The notes beneath the pieces were generated by a model. It worked only from the letters and a program-made list of their open reading frames with translations. It ran no database searches and was not told where the DNA came from. A stretch of DNA of 11,159 nt, taken from the NCBI GenBank assembly GCA_022865845.1, contig JALHUC010000540.1, positions 1 through 11,159 of the forward strand. The letters are read 5' to 3'. This document shows positions 4,810 through 11,076 of the stretch, piece after piece (the first letter of the stretch is position 1; the number at the start of each line of letters is the position of its first letter). This DNA is from a bacterium (GTDB lineage: Bacteria; BMS3Abin14). The translations under genes and the position numbers were made by a program.

Positions 4810-6606
4810 TTACTCCTTTGGCTTTTCCAACTGTTCCTTGAGGTGCCCCGCCTCTTCTTCCAATTCCCGAACCCTGGTGCTGTAATATTCCTCAAGCTGG
4901 TTGTGGCTTTTCAGGATCCTTGCAACCTTGCTTCTCAGGATGGCGTCGATGCGTTTTTCATCGTGGCTCAGGGCCTGATTTCTGCGCCCAATGGCAACTT
5001 TCGGGGAAGAACTGTGAAGCTGGACGATATTATCCAGGACACTTTTGTCGATAGGCGCGAACACCCTGTGGTCAAAATCTTCTAATACACCTTCCAGTTT
5101 TGATTTCTCTTTCGTTATCAGGACTATTGTCGTCGACCGAAGGTCAAGTAAACCTTTGAGGAGACGTGCGGCTACAGAAGATTCCAGACCAGGCAATGAA
5201 TCGGTGACCAGGATGATATCAGGTAACTCCCTGTTAAGGGATTCGACAAGCTGTTGAGGATCTTTTGCTATCTGAAGCCTGATTTCCTGTCGCGTGCAAA
5301 ATTTCGTAACTTTCTCAGCGAGGTCGCCATCAGATTCCGAAATCAGCAGTATTTTCAATTTGCCAGGTTGTTTTCCTTCGATCTCGGGTACCGTTGAAGG
5401 CAGGTACTTGGGAGCTTCCCTGGCGTTCTCTGCCATCCTGTTGAACACCTGCAAAAATTCGGTGATCTGGAACGGTTTATCCAGGTACTCATCAACATTG
5501 TATTCTTCCTGGACCTTTCCCTTATATTTATATTTCTTGTACACAGCGGTCAGGATCATAACCTTGGCAGTGTTGTCCGATTCCTCCTTGATCCTTCGGC
5601 AAAGTTCAAACCCGTGGAGCTTGGGCATCATCGCATCGGTCACCACAAGGGGCGGCCTTTCTTTCATGTAGACCAAGAGCCCCTCCTGCCCATCCATTGC
5701 CGTAAAGACCTGGAAACCTTCACCGGTAAGGATCTGTTCCAGGAGCAGGAGAATTTCACGTTCATCATCTACCACCAGCACCTTGGTGCCAGCATACTTC
5801 CCGGTTCCCGGTTGTCTCTTCGGCAAGTCATCGGAACCCGTTGTATCCTCGGCACCCGAGTGCATCCTGATAATTTCGGAAGCTTCCCGGGCCTTGTCCT
5901 CGAGCGAGGTTCCTTTCAGCAGATCCAGGAGGATCACGGCTTGCTCATATTGCCCGTTTCGATCCACCTCCTTGGCCAATTGCAGGATTTCAGTCTCGTG
6001 TACTGATTCCGTCTCACCCGATCCTGCCAGGATTCGAAACAGTTCATGGGCCTCTGTGTTCTCTGAGTCCAGTTTAAGGGCCTCAATAACCAGCCCCACA
6101 GCAGGTTCACCTTTCCTCGTCTTCAGGCCCAGGGATGCTGCCTGAACAAAGGCCTGGGCAGCGTGAAACGGCATACCGGCGTCCCGGTTTAAAGTGGCGA
6201 ACTGTATCCATTTTTCCATATCCTCTGGATCGACGCTGATAACCTTATCGAAGACCGATACGGCCATCAAATGCTTGCCTTCCTTCCGATAGATATTAGA
6301 CAGCTGGCCATAAACCTCTTTGGCTTCCTCATGGTTATCCATCTCCTCCAGAATTTCAGCGAGGAGATAGTAGGAATCGTGGTGAGACGGAAAGTCCCTC
6401 GTCATCTTTCTCAGGATGGCAATGGCTTTGTTCAGGTTCCGATGAGGACTGTCCGGGACAGAAAAAAGGCGTGCTGCCGCGAGGAAATGTTTGGAGGCTT
6501 CTCCAACGTCACCCTTTTGTTGATATAGCCCGCCGAGGGAATTGTGAAGGTCGGGGCGGTTCGGGTGTTTTCTGAGTTGTTTTAAAAACTCTTTTATCTG
6601 TTCCAA
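4810..6606 (-). CDS. TPR protein with receiver and degenerate receiver domains
   Basis: The 598-residue product has no membrane segment and is probably cytoplasmic. Residues 1-250 are helical TPR-type repeats, for example LHNSLGGLYQQKGDVGEASKHF at 20-41 with further units near 77-106 and 110-160. A linker is followed by a receiver domain at about 275-393 with the expected residues: acidic D280-D281, phosphoacceptor D324 in VVTDAMMP, T353 and K377 in LDKPF. A second receiver-like fold spans about 418-530 but is degenerate. Its acidic pair reads S-E (423-424), strict alignment puts T468 at the phosphoacceptor position, and the KPF lysine is A517. The C-terminus (~560-598) is charged coiled coil. 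There is no DNA-binding or enzymatic output, so it is likely a phospho-controlled scaffold. The start is TTG 6606, the only usual start codon after an in-frame stop at 6628-6630, but it has no clear ribosome site. A later start is possible. Confidence 0.88.
   Translation of the reverse strand: MEQIKEFLKQLRKHPNRPDLHNSLGGLYQQKGDVGEASKHFLAAARLFSVPDSPHRNLNKAIAILRKMTRDFPSHHDSYYLLAEILEEMDNHEEAKEVYGQLSNIYRKEGKHLMAVSVFDKVISVDPEDMEKWIQFATLNRDAGMPFHAAQAFVQAASLGLKTRKGEPAVGLVIEALKLDSENTEAHELFRILAGSGETESVHETEILQLAKEVDRNGQYEQAVILLDLLKGTSLEDKAREASEIIRMHSGAEDTTGSDDLPKRQPGTGKYAGTKVLVVDDEREILLLLEQILTGEGFQVFTAMDGQEGLLVYMKERPPLVVTDAMMPKLHGFELCRRIKEESDNTAKVMILTAVYKKYKYKGKVQEEYNVDEYLDKPFQITEFLQVFNRMAENAREAPKYLPSTVPEIEGKQPGKLKILLISESDGDLAEKVTKFCTRQEIRLQIAKDPQQLVESLNRELPDIILVTDSLPGLESSVAARLLKGLLDLRSTTIVLITKEKSKLEGVLEDFDHRVFAPIDKSVLDNIVQLHSSSPKVAIGRRNQALSHDEKRIDAILRSKVARILKSHNQLEEYYSTRVRELEEEAGHLKEQLEKPKE
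4813..4819 (-). promoter_or_regulatory. Ribosome-binding site deciding the GTG start of the DUF4416 gene
   Basis: The minus strand reads AAAGGAG, then 5 nt, then GTG at 4807. The site lies inside the last codons of the upstream gene. It is the only strong ribosome site near the candidate starts and supports GTG over the internal ATG. Confidence 0.7.
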
Positions 6607-6618
6607 GGGAAGGCTACC

Positions 6619-6642
6619 CGTGATCGGTTATCGGTAATCGGT
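6619..6642 (+). repeat. Heptamer array, left arm (NGTNATC type)
   Basis: Three 7-bp units, CGTGATC, GGTTATC and GGTAATC, plus a trailing GGT, stand head to tail just upstream of the TPR-receiver start codon. The same heptamer appears inverted at 6746-6773, so the pair brackets an AT-rich spacer of about 100 bp. Confidence 0.75.
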
Positions 6643-6658
6643 CCCAAATTACCCAGTA

Positions 6659-6664
6659 AGTATA
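6659..6664 (-). promoter_or_regulatory. Weak candidate -10 box for the TPR-receiver unit
   Basis: The AT-rich gap 6643-6723 reads TATACT on the minus strand at this position, one mismatch from the sigma-70 -10 consensus, about 50 nt before the TTG start. No convincing -35 hexamer lies 16-18 bp upstream. Other TATTAT hexamers occur in the same gap, so the assignment is tentative. Confidence 0.2.
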
Positions 6665-6723
6665 AACCTAATAATTCTTCATAATATCTTTTCAGAAAAT
6701 TACACCCAAAGCCTTTTATAATA

Positions 6724-6740
6724 CTGTCGACAGGTACCTG
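6724..6740. repeat. Two overlapping 10-bp palindromes
   Basis: CTGTCGACAG (6724-6733) and CAGGTACCTG (6731-6740) are both perfect palindromes sharing three bases. They lie at the edge of the AT-rich spacer, just inside the right heptamer arm, and could be a dimeric regulator site or part of a cruciform. Confidence 0.5.
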
Positions 6741-6745
6741 CTTCA

Positions 6746-6773
6746 GATCACGGATCACTGATCACCGATTACT
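6746..6773 (-). repeat. Heptamer array, right arm (inverted copies of the NGTNATC type)
   Basis: On the plus strand four units, GATCACG, GATCACT, GATCACC and GATTACT, stand head to tail. On the minus strand they read AGTAATC, GGTGATC, AGTGATC and CGTGATC, the same heptamer as 6619-6642. The array is framed by CTTCAG (6741-6746) and CTGAAG (6772-6777), and begins 7 bp after the stop codon of the secreted TPR gene. Confidence 0.75.
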
Positions 6774-6780
6774 GAAGTTC

Positions 6781-7329
6781 TCAGTAGTACCCCTTCGCCT
6801 TGTTGTATTCCGACTCGGCCTTGCTGTACTCCTCCAACTCCATGTAGACTTCGCCAAGGTAGAAATGTATCTCCGGGTTCGACCCATCCTCAACGACTGC
6901 CTGGAGCAGGACCTGTTCCGCTTCCCGATATTTCCCCTCCGTGAAGAGGCTTTTCCCACGTTCCAGCAGCCCGCTTGATCGGGTTGTTTCCCTGCTAAGT
7001 CGCTCTTCAATGGCCCTTACTCTTCGGGCCGCGTCGTCCCGTTGAGTACCCGGCCGGCCAAGATCCATAAAACGTCTATAATGCCTCAGGGCGTCCCTGT
7101 CTTTGCCGGAATCTTCGTAAATTAGTCCCATCCTGTAGTGGGCTCGCATATCGTTTAGCCCCAACGCTTTGCGATAATACTGGAGAGCTGTCCTGTAGTC
7201 CTCGCTGGCAAAGTATTTCTCGCCTATTTCGTAGGGGTCCTTCCCCTTGTCTCCACCGGCCTGGACCTGCTGAGGCAACATCACACAGACCAGCAGTAAC
7301 GCTGTCAGGAGACGGAAAACAATTTTCAT
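6781..7329 (-). CDS. Exported TPR-repeat protein
   Basis: The product is 182 residues and begins with a clear signal peptide: positive MK..R, hydrophobic core LLTALLLVCVML, and a type I cleavage site after VQA (residue 24). The cysteine at 15 is not in a good lipobox, so a soluble periplasmic protein is likelier than a lipoprotein. The mature part consists of about four TPR units (32-61, 62-95, 119-150, 151-182), with hallmark G/A/Y spacing as in YRMGLIYEDSGKDRDALRHY. A charged Arg-rich helix lies between the second and third units. It probably serves as a binding module; no enzyme motif is seen. The start is ATG 7329, with AAAGGAG 6 nt upstream. An upstream GTG (7353) would put extra residues before the signal peptide. 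It starts 24 bp after the stop of the membrane double-receiver gene and is likely co-transcribed, so it may meet that protein's periplasmic domain. Confidence 0.88.
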   Translation of the reverse strand: MKIVFRLLTALLLVCVMLPQQVQAGGDKGKDPYEIGEKYFASEDYRTALQYYRKALGLNDMRAHYRMGLIYEDSGKDRDALRHYRRFMDLGRPGTQRDDAARRVRAIEERLSRETTRSSGLLERGKSLFTEGKYREAEQVLLQAVVEDGSNPEIHFYLGEVYMELEEYSKAESEYNKAKGYY

Positions 7330-7353: not shown

Positions 7354-10300
7354 TTACAAAAGCGATCCCATGCCGGACATGTCCCAGGTGAGTACGCGCA
7401 TGGGAACCGCTCCAATGTCATAAAGAACGAGCTGCAGACCTAAAGGCTTGCCTGCCAGCTCCTCTCTGGAAAATGCTACAGTCAAACCCACCTCATAAAG
7501 GAAAACGGGGTTCATTTCTTTTCCGGCTGCGGACACCCGACTAGATATGAATTTGCTCCCTTCAAGTTCTACAGGGAGATGAGCCCTGGTTTCCCGTCCG
7601 GAATGATCCCTTAACGCAATATGCCTTTCGAAACTTTCCGCATATCCGGGATAACCGCTCTTCAGGTTTTTGTTGTAGACCGTAATATAGTAGGACCCTG
7701 AAAGATTGTATGTTTTTGCCATGTCGGCCATGGCTTTTTCTGTTCTCTCGCTGGTCCAACCTTCTTTGGCGGCAGTGTATTTTATGGCTGCCTCCAGCTC
7801 CTCCCTGGTATGAAGGGTGGCCTGGATCATCATATCATCTGATACCGATTGTACAGTATTCCTGCGCCAGAGTTCTTCATAGGTGTCCTCCGGCCCCGAC
7901 CTCGCGATCCATGGTTTGGGAGGTTTACCGGCCGTTATCTGCGGATCTGGAACAGTAGCTATGCCCGGCACCGGTATGGCAGCTTGACCCGAAGTGGCAT
8001 CGTTCCTTGATTTGGCCAAATATCCACCGGCAAAAATAACAAGTGCAGCGACCACCGCAACGGCGGCAATTCCATACTTGCTCTTCCAGGTGACCACTTC
8101 GAGAGGTCGGCTGCGGCCAGGCATATGCATCGGGTAAACCCGCGCCGCTTCCTCGCCCATTAACCGGCGGCTTTCCCTGAGAGCGTCTTCGAAGGATTGC
8201 TTGAGTTCGCCCTCTTTCTCATTCCACATCGCCCTATCCTTACGGTAAGCCGACTTTTCCTCTTCCAAAGCTCTCATAAGGGATTCAACACTATTCTCAA
8301 GGGCTGTTTCCTTGTCCTTCTGATCCCTGAGAATAGTTTGAGCTTCTCGAACCGTTTTCCCAAGCACCGCTTCCAACTGATCAAGACGGTCATCCAGATG
8401 AGAATTGCCCCTGACCGGTTCGCGGAGTTCTCCAAGGTGATCAGCTTTCCTTTGCTCTTCCTGCTTCTCTAACTGCTCACAGCGATTCCGGGTCTCTCGC
8501 AGAGCAGCACTGAGTTGCTTATTATCCTTTTCCAGCTGCTCTATCTTTCCGTCCGATTCGTCTGATCCTTCGATCGCAGCTTTTAGACCCTTGATCTCTT
8601 CTCTGGCATCGCCAAGCTTTTCCCCTTTTTCCCCCACCTTTTTCTCAAGATCCTCACAGCGTTTCCGGGTCTCCCTCAAGGAAGCCTTCAGCTCCTTGTT
8701 ATCCTTTTCCAGCTGCCTTATCTTTTCCTCTTCCTGGGTGGGCTCCAGAAGTTCGGCCTTGAGTTCTTCGATCTTTCTATCAGCAGCGTTACGCAACTCC
8801 CTTTCAGCTTCCAACCTGTTTTCCAGATTCTGGATCTTGTCATCAGCTTCATCATCCTCGCCCGGCTGAAGTTTGGCTTGAGCAAGTTCATCCGCGAGGA
8901 GGGCTTTTTCCTGAGCCTGACTGTCCAGCTGACCTTCAAGGTCCATACGAGCCCCAGTTTCACTGGCGGCAAGCTTTCGATTTTCCTCTCCTTCTTTCTT
9001 CAACTCTTCATTCAGCTTTTCCAGCTCTAGATTTCTTGAGCGCAGTTCATCCATCTCTCCCTGGGCGGGAGACAAAGTGTCTCTCTCTTTTTCCAGAAAA
9101 TCAGATCTTTCAAGAGCTTCAGCAAGTTCCTCCTTGAGAGCGGACAGTTCACCATTGACGTTGTCTGGTAAGGTGTCCAGCTGCTTGCGAAGCTCGCTGG
9201 TTTCCGATTGAGCCTGTTCTAGCTGGGATTTGACCTCATCTAGCCACTGGACCTTGGATTCCGCCTCAGCAATGCGGGTGATCAGCTCCTGGTTCTCCTC
9301 TCTGGACTTTTCCAGCTGCTGCTTGAGAACAGGGGTTTCATCTTCTTTCTCCCTGTTCTGGATGATGGAATTCGCCTGATCCTCAATCTCCTTTTTAGCC
9401 GCGATGGCAGCTTTAAGATCCCTGCTTAAACCTTCTATCTCTTTCTGTAGTTCTTCGCGATCAGGCGCATCATCTCCGGGATCAGGTATCTCCCGTGACT
9501 TGAGTTCTTCAATTTCAATGTTAAGGAGTATGTTCCGGTTTTCCATTTCCAGAGCCGCGGCATTGGCTCCTTCCAGCCTGGCGCCAAACTCTGTCAGCTG
9601 GGACTTCCACTCAACATGGGATTCAGCCTCCAGCTGTTTATCCTTCAACTCCTTATTTTCACCCCGGAGGGCGTTCAGCTCTTCCTGTTTTTCCTTCAGT
9701 TTCTGCTCTAGCTTCAGGCCAAGCTCCTCAAGCTCCCCTCGTCCCTGACCATCGGCAGAGATCCCTTCCAGTCTGGCCTTCAGGGCAGTGTTCTCCTCGG
9801 CCAATCGCTCGGATGAGGCTCTGGATTCCTCGAACCGCTGTGTGGCAAGGGTGAGCTTGTCATGAAGACCACTTTCCGTTCCCTCCACCGTTTTCCTCAT
9901 TTCGAACATTTCAGCTTCCAACTGATCCTTTGTTTTTCTCACACTGTCCAGGTCAGCTTCCAGCTGATCCTTTGCACTTTTCATACCCTCAAGATCGCCT
10001 TCCAGCTGTAATTCCCTGGCAACCTTACCTTCCAGTTCCGCTTTTGTTTTTTCAAGCTGCTTCAAGATGTGTGGGTCACTGCCTTCCATGGTTGAAGATA
10101 CGTTTTCGCCAGATATGTCCGCATCCTCCAAAGGCACAAAGAAACCTGTTTTACTCTCTATATTTATTGGAGGGGTGTTCCCTAAAGAGGTGAAGCGGCG
10201 AACGAGTTCATGGAGTTCGGATTTCATGAACGGTTTCTGCAGGTAAGCGTCGGCGTGAAACCTGAGTTTGGAGTGGCGTTGGAAGGATTCATCGTCAACC

Positions 10301-11076
10301 ACCGCTGACATGAGGATGATAGGGATATTTTCTGTGTTTTTCTGTTTTCGAAGCATCTCGCAGACCACAAAACCGTTCAGGTTGGGCATCTGGACATCCA
10401 GCAGGACCAGATCAGGCAGAAGTTCACTGGCTTTTTTATACCCGGCCTCTCCATCAGAAGCGGTTTCGGTCCTGATGCCTAATTCCTTCAGGAAGTCCGT
10501 GGTGATATCACAAATGTACCGGGAATCGTCCACAACCAGTATAGTGAGTTCCCCTGCTTCAACATGGACCTGTACATGATCCTGAGGTTCCTCTACAGGG
10601 AACTGTGAGATCTCGGGAGCACTATGTGTCTCGGCAGGTTTGGGATGGCCCAAGGGTTCCTCGCCATCCGGCGTGATCTTCACTTCCGAAAACCCGAAGT
10701 CCTCGCCAACAAGGTTCCGGATCATGTCAATGAGTACCTGGCCGCTGAACGGTTTAGGCAGGTAGCCGTCGGCGTGAATACTTAGGCTGGAATGTCTTTC
10801 CAGAAGGGCCTTTTCAACCTTGCCCGACATCATGATCACGGGAATATTGCAGGTTTCGGGGCGCTCTCTGAGTGTTTTGAAGAGGACAAACCCCTGTATC
10901 CTGGGTATTTCAATGTCGGTTATAATGAGATCAGGCTGTTCGGCAATAGCCAGGGCAAGGCCGGCCTCGCCGTCCTGGGCGTTGACAATGTCGACATCGC
11001 TGTCGGCCAGCAGGTCGTTTACGTAGGTTTGATAGAAGAGGTCATCCTCAATTACGAGGAACTTCAGCTTTGACAT
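7354..11076 (-). CDS. Transmembrane double-receiver coiled-coil protein
   Basis: The 1240-residue product combines parts rarely seen together. Receiver 1 (3-125) has E10/D11/D12, phosphoacceptor D54, S84 and K108. Receiver 2 (178-297) has D183/D184, D227, S257 and K281. Both look phosphorylatable. Residues ~335-975 are an almost unbroken E/K/L/Q-rich coiled coil with internal repeats. One membrane helix lies at ~1002-1021, preceded by Arg/Lys (GRSR, WKSK), which by the positive-inside rule leaves receivers and coil in the cytoplasm. A Pro-rich linker follows, then a ~180-residue C-terminal domain in the periplasm that I do not recognise. FrzS and AglZ of Myxococcus also join a receiver to a long coiled coil and act in polarity and gliding, but lack this membrane tail; similarity of role is inference. 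The ATG at 11076 directly precedes the first receiver strand; its ribosome site is weak. No kinase lies nearby. Confidence 0.92.
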   Translation of the reverse strand: MSKLKFLVIEDDLFYQTYVNDLLADSDVDIVNAQDGEAGLALAIAEQPDLIITDIEIPRIQGFVLFKTLRERPETCNIPVIMMSGKVEKALLERHSSLSIHADGYLPKPFSGQVLIDMIRNLVGEDFGFSEVKITPDGEEPLGHPKPAETHSAPEISQFPVEEPQDHVQVHVEAGELTILVVDDSRYICDITTDFLKELGIRTETASDGEAGYKKASELLPDLVLLDVQMPNLNGFVVCEMLRKQKNTENIPIILMSAVVDDESFQRHSKLRFHADAYLQKPFMKSELHELVRRFTSLGNTPPINIESKTGFFVPLEDADISGENVSSTMEGSDPHILKQLEKTKAELEGKVARELQLEGDLEGMKSAKDQLEADLDSVRKTKDQLEAEMFEMRKTVEGTESGLHDKLTLATQRFEESRASSERLAEENTALKARLEGISADGQGRGELEELGLKLEQKLKEKQEELNALRGENKELKDKQLEAESHVEWKSQLTEFGARLEGANAAALEMENRNILLNIEIEELKSREIPDPGDDAPDREELQKEIEGLSRDLKAAIAAKKEIEDQANSIIQNREKEDETPVLKQQLEKSREENQELITRIAEAESKVQWLDEVKSQLEQAQSETSELRKQLDTLPDNVNGELSALKEELAEALERSDFLEKERDTLSPAQGEMDELRSRNLELEKLNEELKKEGEENRKLAASETGARMDLEGQLDSQAQEKALLADELAQAKLQPGEDDEADDKIQNLENRLEAERELRNAADRKIEELKAELLEPTQEEEKIRQLEKDNKELKASLRETRKRCEDLEKKVGEKGEKLGDAREEIKGLKAAIEGSDESDGKIEQLEKDNKQLSAALRETRNRCEQLEKQEEQRKADHLGELREPVRGNSHLDDRLDQLEAVLGKTVREAQTILRDQKDKETALENSVESLMRALEEEKSAYRKDRAMWNEKEGELKQSFEDALRESRRLMGEEAARVYPMHMPGRSRPLEVVTWKSKYGIAAVAVVAALVIFAGGYLAKSRNDATSGQAAIPVPGIATVPDPQITAGKPPKPWIARSGPEDTYEELWRRNTVQSVSDDMMIQATLHTREELEAAIKYTAAKEGWTSERTEKAMADMAKTYNLSGSYYITVYNKNLKSGYPGYAESFERHIALRDHSGRETRAHLPVELEGSKFISSRVSAAGKEMNPVFLYEVGLTVAFSREELAGKPLGLQLVLYDIGAVPMRVLTWDMSGMGSLL
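8461..8547 (-). repeat. Direct repeat in coiled coil, copy 2
   Basis: Codes for residues 844-872, beginning KIEQLEKDNKQLSAALRETR. It closely matches residues 785-813 (8638-8724), which begin KIRQLEKDNKELKASLRETR. The nucleotide sequences are also visibly alike, suggesting an internal duplication. Confidence 0.8.
8638..8724 (-). repeat. Direct repeat in coiled coil, copy 1
   Basis: Codes for residues 785-813, the first copy of a 29-residue direct repeat whose second copy is at 8461-8547. Starts of the two copies are 59 residues apart. Confidence 0.8.
9880..10005 (-). repeat. Three tandem 42-bp units at the start of the coiled coil
   Basis: Residues 358-371 (LEGDLEGMKSAKDQ), 372-385 (LEADLDSVRKTKDQ) and 386-399 (LEAEMFEMRKTVEG) are three consecutive 14-residue units, each two heptads long. 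The DNA shows the same 42-bp period, so the coil seems to have grown here by tandem duplication. Confidence 0.75.

Follow-up and report, generated by a model that had tools for sequence, protein, structure and literature searches.

We analysed a window of 11,159 nucleotides, which is the entire contig JALHUC010000540.1 (C421) of a draft bacterial genome (GCA_022865845.1, GTDB lineage BMS3Abin14; 2.86 Mb in 662 contigs), and found that it encodes a 1240-residue protein uniting in one chain two receiver domains with intact acceptor sites, a long segmented coiled coil, a single membrane helix and a predicted periplasmic C-terminal domain (Table 1). We give about an even chance (roughly 0.5) to this protein being a receiver-controlled inner-membrane scaffold of the PodJ/HubP kind, held at a cell wall or secretin site, with the type IV pilus as its likeliest target machine. 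The two cytoplasmic receivers would be phosphorylated at D54, D227 or both, the donor probably being a histidine kinase of the CheA or another type, and would be carried on the coil, itself anchored in the inner membrane by the one helix. The complex would be positioned and held at a possibly polar site by its periplasmic end, in those copies that have one, and by an AMIN-fold partner encoded just upstream, in analogy to the periplasmic domains of PodJ and HubP. Phosphorylation would alter recruitment in the cytoplasm, a candidate recruit being the tetratricopeptide repeat (TPR)-receiver protein encoded downstream.

Using Pfam, we detected Response_reg (2.1e-44) on two stretches of the protein, and no other Pfam family was above cut-off anywhere in it. 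The phosphorylation-site residues are complete in both receivers (acceptors D54 and D227, acidic pairs E10/D11 and D183/D184, S84 and S257, and K108 and K281), that is, the acceptor Asp, acidic pair, Thr/Ser and Lys that mark canonical phosphorylatable receivers at the level of sequence. Across 49 aligned rows of the family, position 54 is Asp in 46 (the other three are gaps), position 227 is Asp in 48 and position 281 is Lys in all 49; five exceptional rows (P0010, P0013, P0035 and two genome copies from contig ends) have incomplete or unaligned starts. The original prediction, made from the DNA alone, had named two catalytically complete receivers with these same acceptors, and both the domain search with hidden Markov models and the conservation agree with it. 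In the short motif between receiver 2 and the coil, P315 is invariant and K309 almost invariant among the 19 aligned sequences.

Over residues 320-975, Leu, Ile, Val and Met residues show a 3.5-residue periodicity above that of all 500 shuffled sequences, and periods of 3.6 and 3.67 likewise exceed all 500. The coil is segmented rather than a single rod, because patches containing Gly or Pro interrupt it; of the coiled coil of about 640 residues first proposed, the heptad-like character and the extent stood and an unbroken rod did not. The sole strong hydrophobic stretch of the protein by hydropathy falls at residues 1003-1021, where a membrane helix had been anticipated at 1002-1021. One such helix per protein was found in all 36 homologues that carry the C-terminal domain (the tail); of 13 further members, 10 have it, and the remaining three (P0043, P0044 and P0045) are sequences cut short. 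Since Lys and Arg residues are more numerous before the helix than after it in 38 of the 49 rows, with 10 rows balanced and 1 showing the reverse, an orientation with the N-terminus inside and the C-terminus outside is favoured. The tail itself gave no sequence match in Pfam, NCBIfam or PDB.

A search with the tail as query matched 36 proteins, and 34 of these have both receivers, the pre-membrane region, the helix and the tail in one chain, so that homologues keeping the whole order, which the original prediction proposed to look for, do exist. Of the other two, P0013 has no receiver and P0035 has one; receiver 1 is partial in P0010 and the tail is partial in P0036. Querying with the C-terminal part of a short relative gave 6 proteins, and a receiver query gave the 13 further members, below which, after a gap in score, come hybrid kinases and a single GGDEF protein (P0056-P0066, E no better than 1.5e-39). 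In total, we saw 55 members, restricted to one lineage in the searches made. In two distant members, P0054 and P0055, the tail is recognisable by eye.

The distribution of the tail was followed in 12 genomes of the phylum, which belong to one family and eight genera. The C-terminal profile matches 11 of them, at full length in G000, G006, G007, G008, G009 and G010, and with a match that ends just past the helix in G001, G002, G003, G005 and G011. The copies in the latter five (of 11 readable genomes) have both receivers, the coil, the juxtamembrane segment and the helix, followed by some 36-66 residues in place of the tail domain. The missing match in the twelfth genome, G004, does not mean that the gene is absent: a copy with a normal start is there, truncated by a run of N. 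In a receiver-based tree of 54 rows, of which 37 have the tail, 14 are short and 3 are cut, the presence or absence of the tail needs two changes, two being forced by well supported branches, and none of 500 shuffles of the labels came as low (mean 12.5). With midpoint rooting, which puts the tail on both sides, two losses of the tail appear to be the simplest history. The coil also varies, with a distance from receiver 2 to the helix of 451-810 residues in 42 proteins, the minimum coming from the partial-looking P0036. Of 93 distinct coil indels of at least 4 residues, 20 are multiples of 7 against about 13 expected with equal remainders, a weak excess.

FrzZ, a dual receiver that is not known to have a coil or membrane part, resembles the present protein in its tandem receivers, and HubP and FimV carry a LysM domain at their N-terminal side, in the periplasm. 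FrzZ acts in the chemosensory Frz pathway that controls pili (PMC4546325). FrzS and AglZ of Myxococcus have one receiver at the N-terminus and, behind it, a coiled coil whose length varies, and FrzS serves type IV pilus motility (PMC1974792, PMC4546325); their receivers have lost the acceptor Asp (PMC4546325, PMC1974792), whereas here there are two receivers with Asp, the chain spans the membrane once and many copies end in a periplasmic domain, in keeping with the distinction from FrzS/AglZ drawn at the outset. PodJ, a polar scaffold of Caulobacter, has cytoplasmic coils, one membrane helix and periplasmic TPR and wall-binding domains in a chain of about 1000 residues tied to two-component signalling, and both sides of the membrane matter for its pole localisation and signalling (PMC8980812). 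Cytoplasmic coils, a single helix and a periplasmic C-terminus are likewise predicted here; compared by description, PodJ differs in having coils and a disordered region with no receivers mentioned, and in a periplasmic part made of TPR and a peptidoglycan-binding domain (PMC8980812), where the present tail has a predicted Ig-like fold and no such Pfam match. HubP and FimV are single-pass scaffolds with a periplasmic wall-binding domain and a large cytoplasmic part that organises polar machinery, but in mirror orientation and with no receivers in the description available; polar targeting of HubP requires its periplasmic LysM domain, which also suffices for it (PMC8789113). The periplasmic parts of PodJ and HubP serve localisation and regulation (PMC8980812, PMC8789113), and the AMIN domain of PilQ is described as binding peptidoglycan and as tied to pilus assembly at division (PMC7668184). 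A membrane-anchored output domain is also described for the MetOD3 response regulators, which are archaeal, have few members and show no link to the present domains (PMC5847659). These precedents (PodJ, HubP, the AMIN domain of PilQ and FrzS/AglZ) are the reason why we favour a receiver-switched membrane scaffold. For either half of the layout there are precedents; a chain that combines two intact receivers with a coil, a helix and a periplasmic domain appears to be new. Like the original prediction, which knew of no characterised protein of this layout, we found no paper on it in the open-licence PMC literature, which is no proof of its absence from print.

In 9 of the 12 genomes we found a periplasmic protein that ends in a domain of predicted AMIN fold, as in PilQ and AmiC (AmiC being its best fold match); in all eight where the flank is readable, it is encoded directly upstream of the scaffold gene. 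This partner is present in 6/6 genomes with the tail versus 2/5 without, a contrast behind which lie just two evolutionary changes. We dropped the idea that an Ig-like extension of this partner tracks the tail, as G009 and G010 combine the tail with an AMIN protein that, at about 200 residues, has no room for the extension. The TPR-receiver gene is found in 11 of the 12 genomes at E 1e-40 or better (the exception is G006); in 10 it lies directly downstream of the scaffold gene or is separated from it by the small TPR gene.

The link with pili comes from one genome. A contig of G008, free of N, encodes in order PilB (775.7 bits, cut-off 675.65), PilT (482.9, cut-off 319.1), a PilC-like protein (600.6, under its cut-off of 700), a PilS-like kinase (Pfam PilS membrane domain, 52.2, cut-off 27), a sigma-54 response regulator for which no PilR-specific model matched, the AMIN protein, the scaffold, the TPR protein and the TPR-receiver protein. 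Upstream of the scaffold gene in G002 are genes for a methyl-accepting chemotaxis protein (MCP), CheA and CheD. Across the set, the T2SSE family was detected in 12/12 genomes, secretin in 11/12, the CheA dimer domain in 12/12 and Roadblock/MglB in 11/12, and the PilQ model was above cut-off in G000 (377.3 over 284.35). Flagellin was matched in none of the 12 genomes, of which seven are at least 90% complete and the rest incomplete; the same search matched 4 of 14 control genomes.

Several observations weigh against a pilus scaffold. Linkage to pil genes and linkage to chemosensory genes were each seen in only one of the 12 genomes (G008 and G002, respectively), and most copies sit in the housekeeping setting rplM-rpsI-argC / yicC-gmk-rpoZ-spoT, lying between argC and yicC in the other readable flanks. 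The T2SSE and secretin families include type II secretion, which is apparently also present in these genomes. The AMIN identity of the partner comes from its fold, searches of Pfam and PDB by sequence giving no AMIN match (for Pfam, none at E up to 1 for three such upstream proteins and none at 0.1 for that of G000), and the AMIN partner was not matched in G001, G002 and G005.

We ranked the scaffold above three other readings of the protein. The strongest of these, itself unlikely, is the signalling from inside to outside that the original prediction put forward, in which receiver phosphorylation would change the coil, then the helix, then a periplasmic domain whose target would be the cell wall, the pilus secretin or the AMIN partner. 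The receivers and the tail are both strongly conserved where present (in P0034, 65% and 53% for the receivers and 52% for the tail), a periplasmic partner is encoded next door, and its more regular presence in tail-bearing genomes would fit contact between the two, with the reservation that only two changes are involved. A receiver protein that spans the membrane, has a predicted periplasmic C-terminus and is conserved as a unit is what survives of that prediction; because the tail is missing in five of the genomes and the receiver-helix distance varies so widely, the tail is not a constant output and a rigid relay along the coil is not favoured. The Gly/Pro-containing breaks and the low share of heptad-multiple indels also speak against it. 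No more probable is a form of this idea in which the protein is a response regulator with its output across the inner membrane, the Ig-like domain acting on the AMIN partner to gate the type IV pilus from inside, and the tail-less lineages having shed the periplasmic half and kept a cytoplasmic scaffold.

Signalling in the opposite direction is somewhat more doubtful. The tail and the AMIN partner would sense the state of the wall or pilus and tune the docking of the receivers with kinases, the protein being a membrane-tethered phosphate sink or adaptor. Two intact receivers could act as such a sink, and the membrane and periplasmic part of PodJ modulates signalling by the kinase PleC (PMC8980812); no kinase gene is constantly adjacent, however (CheA lies beside the scaffold gene only in G002 and a PilS-like kinase lies upstream in G008), and the tail-less forms stay conserved. 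We consider it less probable again that the protein is a structural, envelope or cell-cycle scaffold apart from pili, for instance in division or cell shape, with receivers that merely provide timing: the housekeeping neighbourhood and the presence of AMIN in AmiC, a cell-separation amidase, would suit this role, but the pilus genes of G008 and the chemosensory genes of G002 would not. An assembly or annotation artefact fusing separate genes, which the original prediction had allowed for the tail and which the G004 copy recalls by running into N and then a different gene, is very improbable in general and refuted for the window, where the frame is unbroken and the chain is that of homologues from several sources.

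If the receiver-switched scaffold is correct, the family would add single-pass membrane scaffolds to the classes of response regulator, uniting the FrzS idea (receiver and coil) with the PodJ/HubP idea (a membrane hub reaching the cell wall). The AMIN partner, the double-receiver scaffold, the TPR protein and the TPR-receiver protein would then form a candidate four-gene module for the control of surface machinery in a little-studied phylum that has no detectable flagellin. Were the inside-to-outside reading true instead, a two-component output would reach the periplasm directly, with no transcription needed.

Table 1. Positions in the window of the scaffold gene, its parts and its downstream neighbours
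Feature	Position	Strand	Basis
1240-residue receiver-receiver-coil-helix-tail gene	7354..11076	-	Uninterrupted open frame; 55 family proteins found
Receiver 1, residues 4-123 (acceptor D54 at 10915-10917)	10708..11067	-	Pfam Response_reg; NCBIfam stretch 5-123
Receiver 2, residues 179-292 (acceptor D227 at 10396-10398)	10201..10542	-	Pfam Response_reg 179-292
Conserved SKTGFFVP motif, residues 308-315, past receiver 2 and ahead of the coil	10132..10155	-	Consensus VESKTGFxVP in 19 aligned sequences
Segmented coiled coil, residues ~332-975	8152..10083	-	Heptad-type periodicity; length varies among homologues
Juxtamembrane segment, conserved and basic, residues 974-1000	8077..8157	-	Matched in 36/36 tail homologues; similar sequence in tail-less forms
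Single membrane helix, residues 1003-1021	8014..8070	-	Mean hydropathy 2.46
C-terminal domain, residues ~1066-1240, predicted periplasmic, Ig-like sandwich with helices	7357..7881	-	
TPR protein with signal peptide	6781..7329	-	ATG 24 bases past end of preceding stop codon; ribosome-binding-site-like AAAGGAG before ATG
Cytoplasmic TPR-receiver-receiver-like protein, 598 residues, conserved partner gene	4810..6606	-	Open frame, Pfam

On the minus strand of the window, the 1240-residue gene is followed by genes for the small TPR protein, the TPR-receiver-receiver-like protein, DUF4416, YicC, guanylate kinase, an omega-type RNA polymerase subunit and a RelA/SpoT protein. The end of another contig (C576) overlaps the end of the window exactly over 141 bases and extends it on the upstream side with a 661-residue exported-looking protein and argC, preceded by rpsI and rplM (argC, rpsI and rplM named by eye); 85 bases separate the end of the 661-residue protein from the ATG of the scaffold gene. 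The small TPR protein has 190 residues as read and 182 from a likelier ATG. Its top NCBIfam match is the pilus protein PilW, far under cut-off (45.5 of 154 bits), and such a gene follows the scaffold gene in G000, G006, G007 and G008. Between the two TPR genes (6607-6780), short motifs such as ATCGGTTATCGG / GATCACGGATCACTGATC recur, and similar runs occur in L009.

Some further observations concern motility and cytoskeletal genes elsewhere in the genomes. The PilB of G008 (L029:2353-4143) has an MshE-type cyclic di-GMP-binding motif above cut-off (63.4, cut-off 38 bits), and the pilus motor is therefore probably also under cyclic di-GMP control. The G006 record (CP070698.1; L010, L032, L033 and L039) is a single "chromosome" joined by 100-base runs of N. 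Gene order across these runs is not trustworthy in a record scaffolded in this way, and we discarded as evidence the pilB and pilT found there at about 10 kb. On contig C116 of G000 (L036), a genome with no flagellin match, CheA is encoded near CheY-like and other receiver proteins. An MglA beside an MglB-type gene in G000 was likewise set aside, as it was recognised by eye only, with 0 NCBIfam families and the MglB model under cut-off (89.7 of 200 bits). Beyond the run of N in G004 (L038:6934-7986) lies a gene for an actin-like protein of the MamK family (NCBIfam MamK, 377.9 bits, cut-off 400), and actins of the magnetosome or a related type may occur in the phylum.

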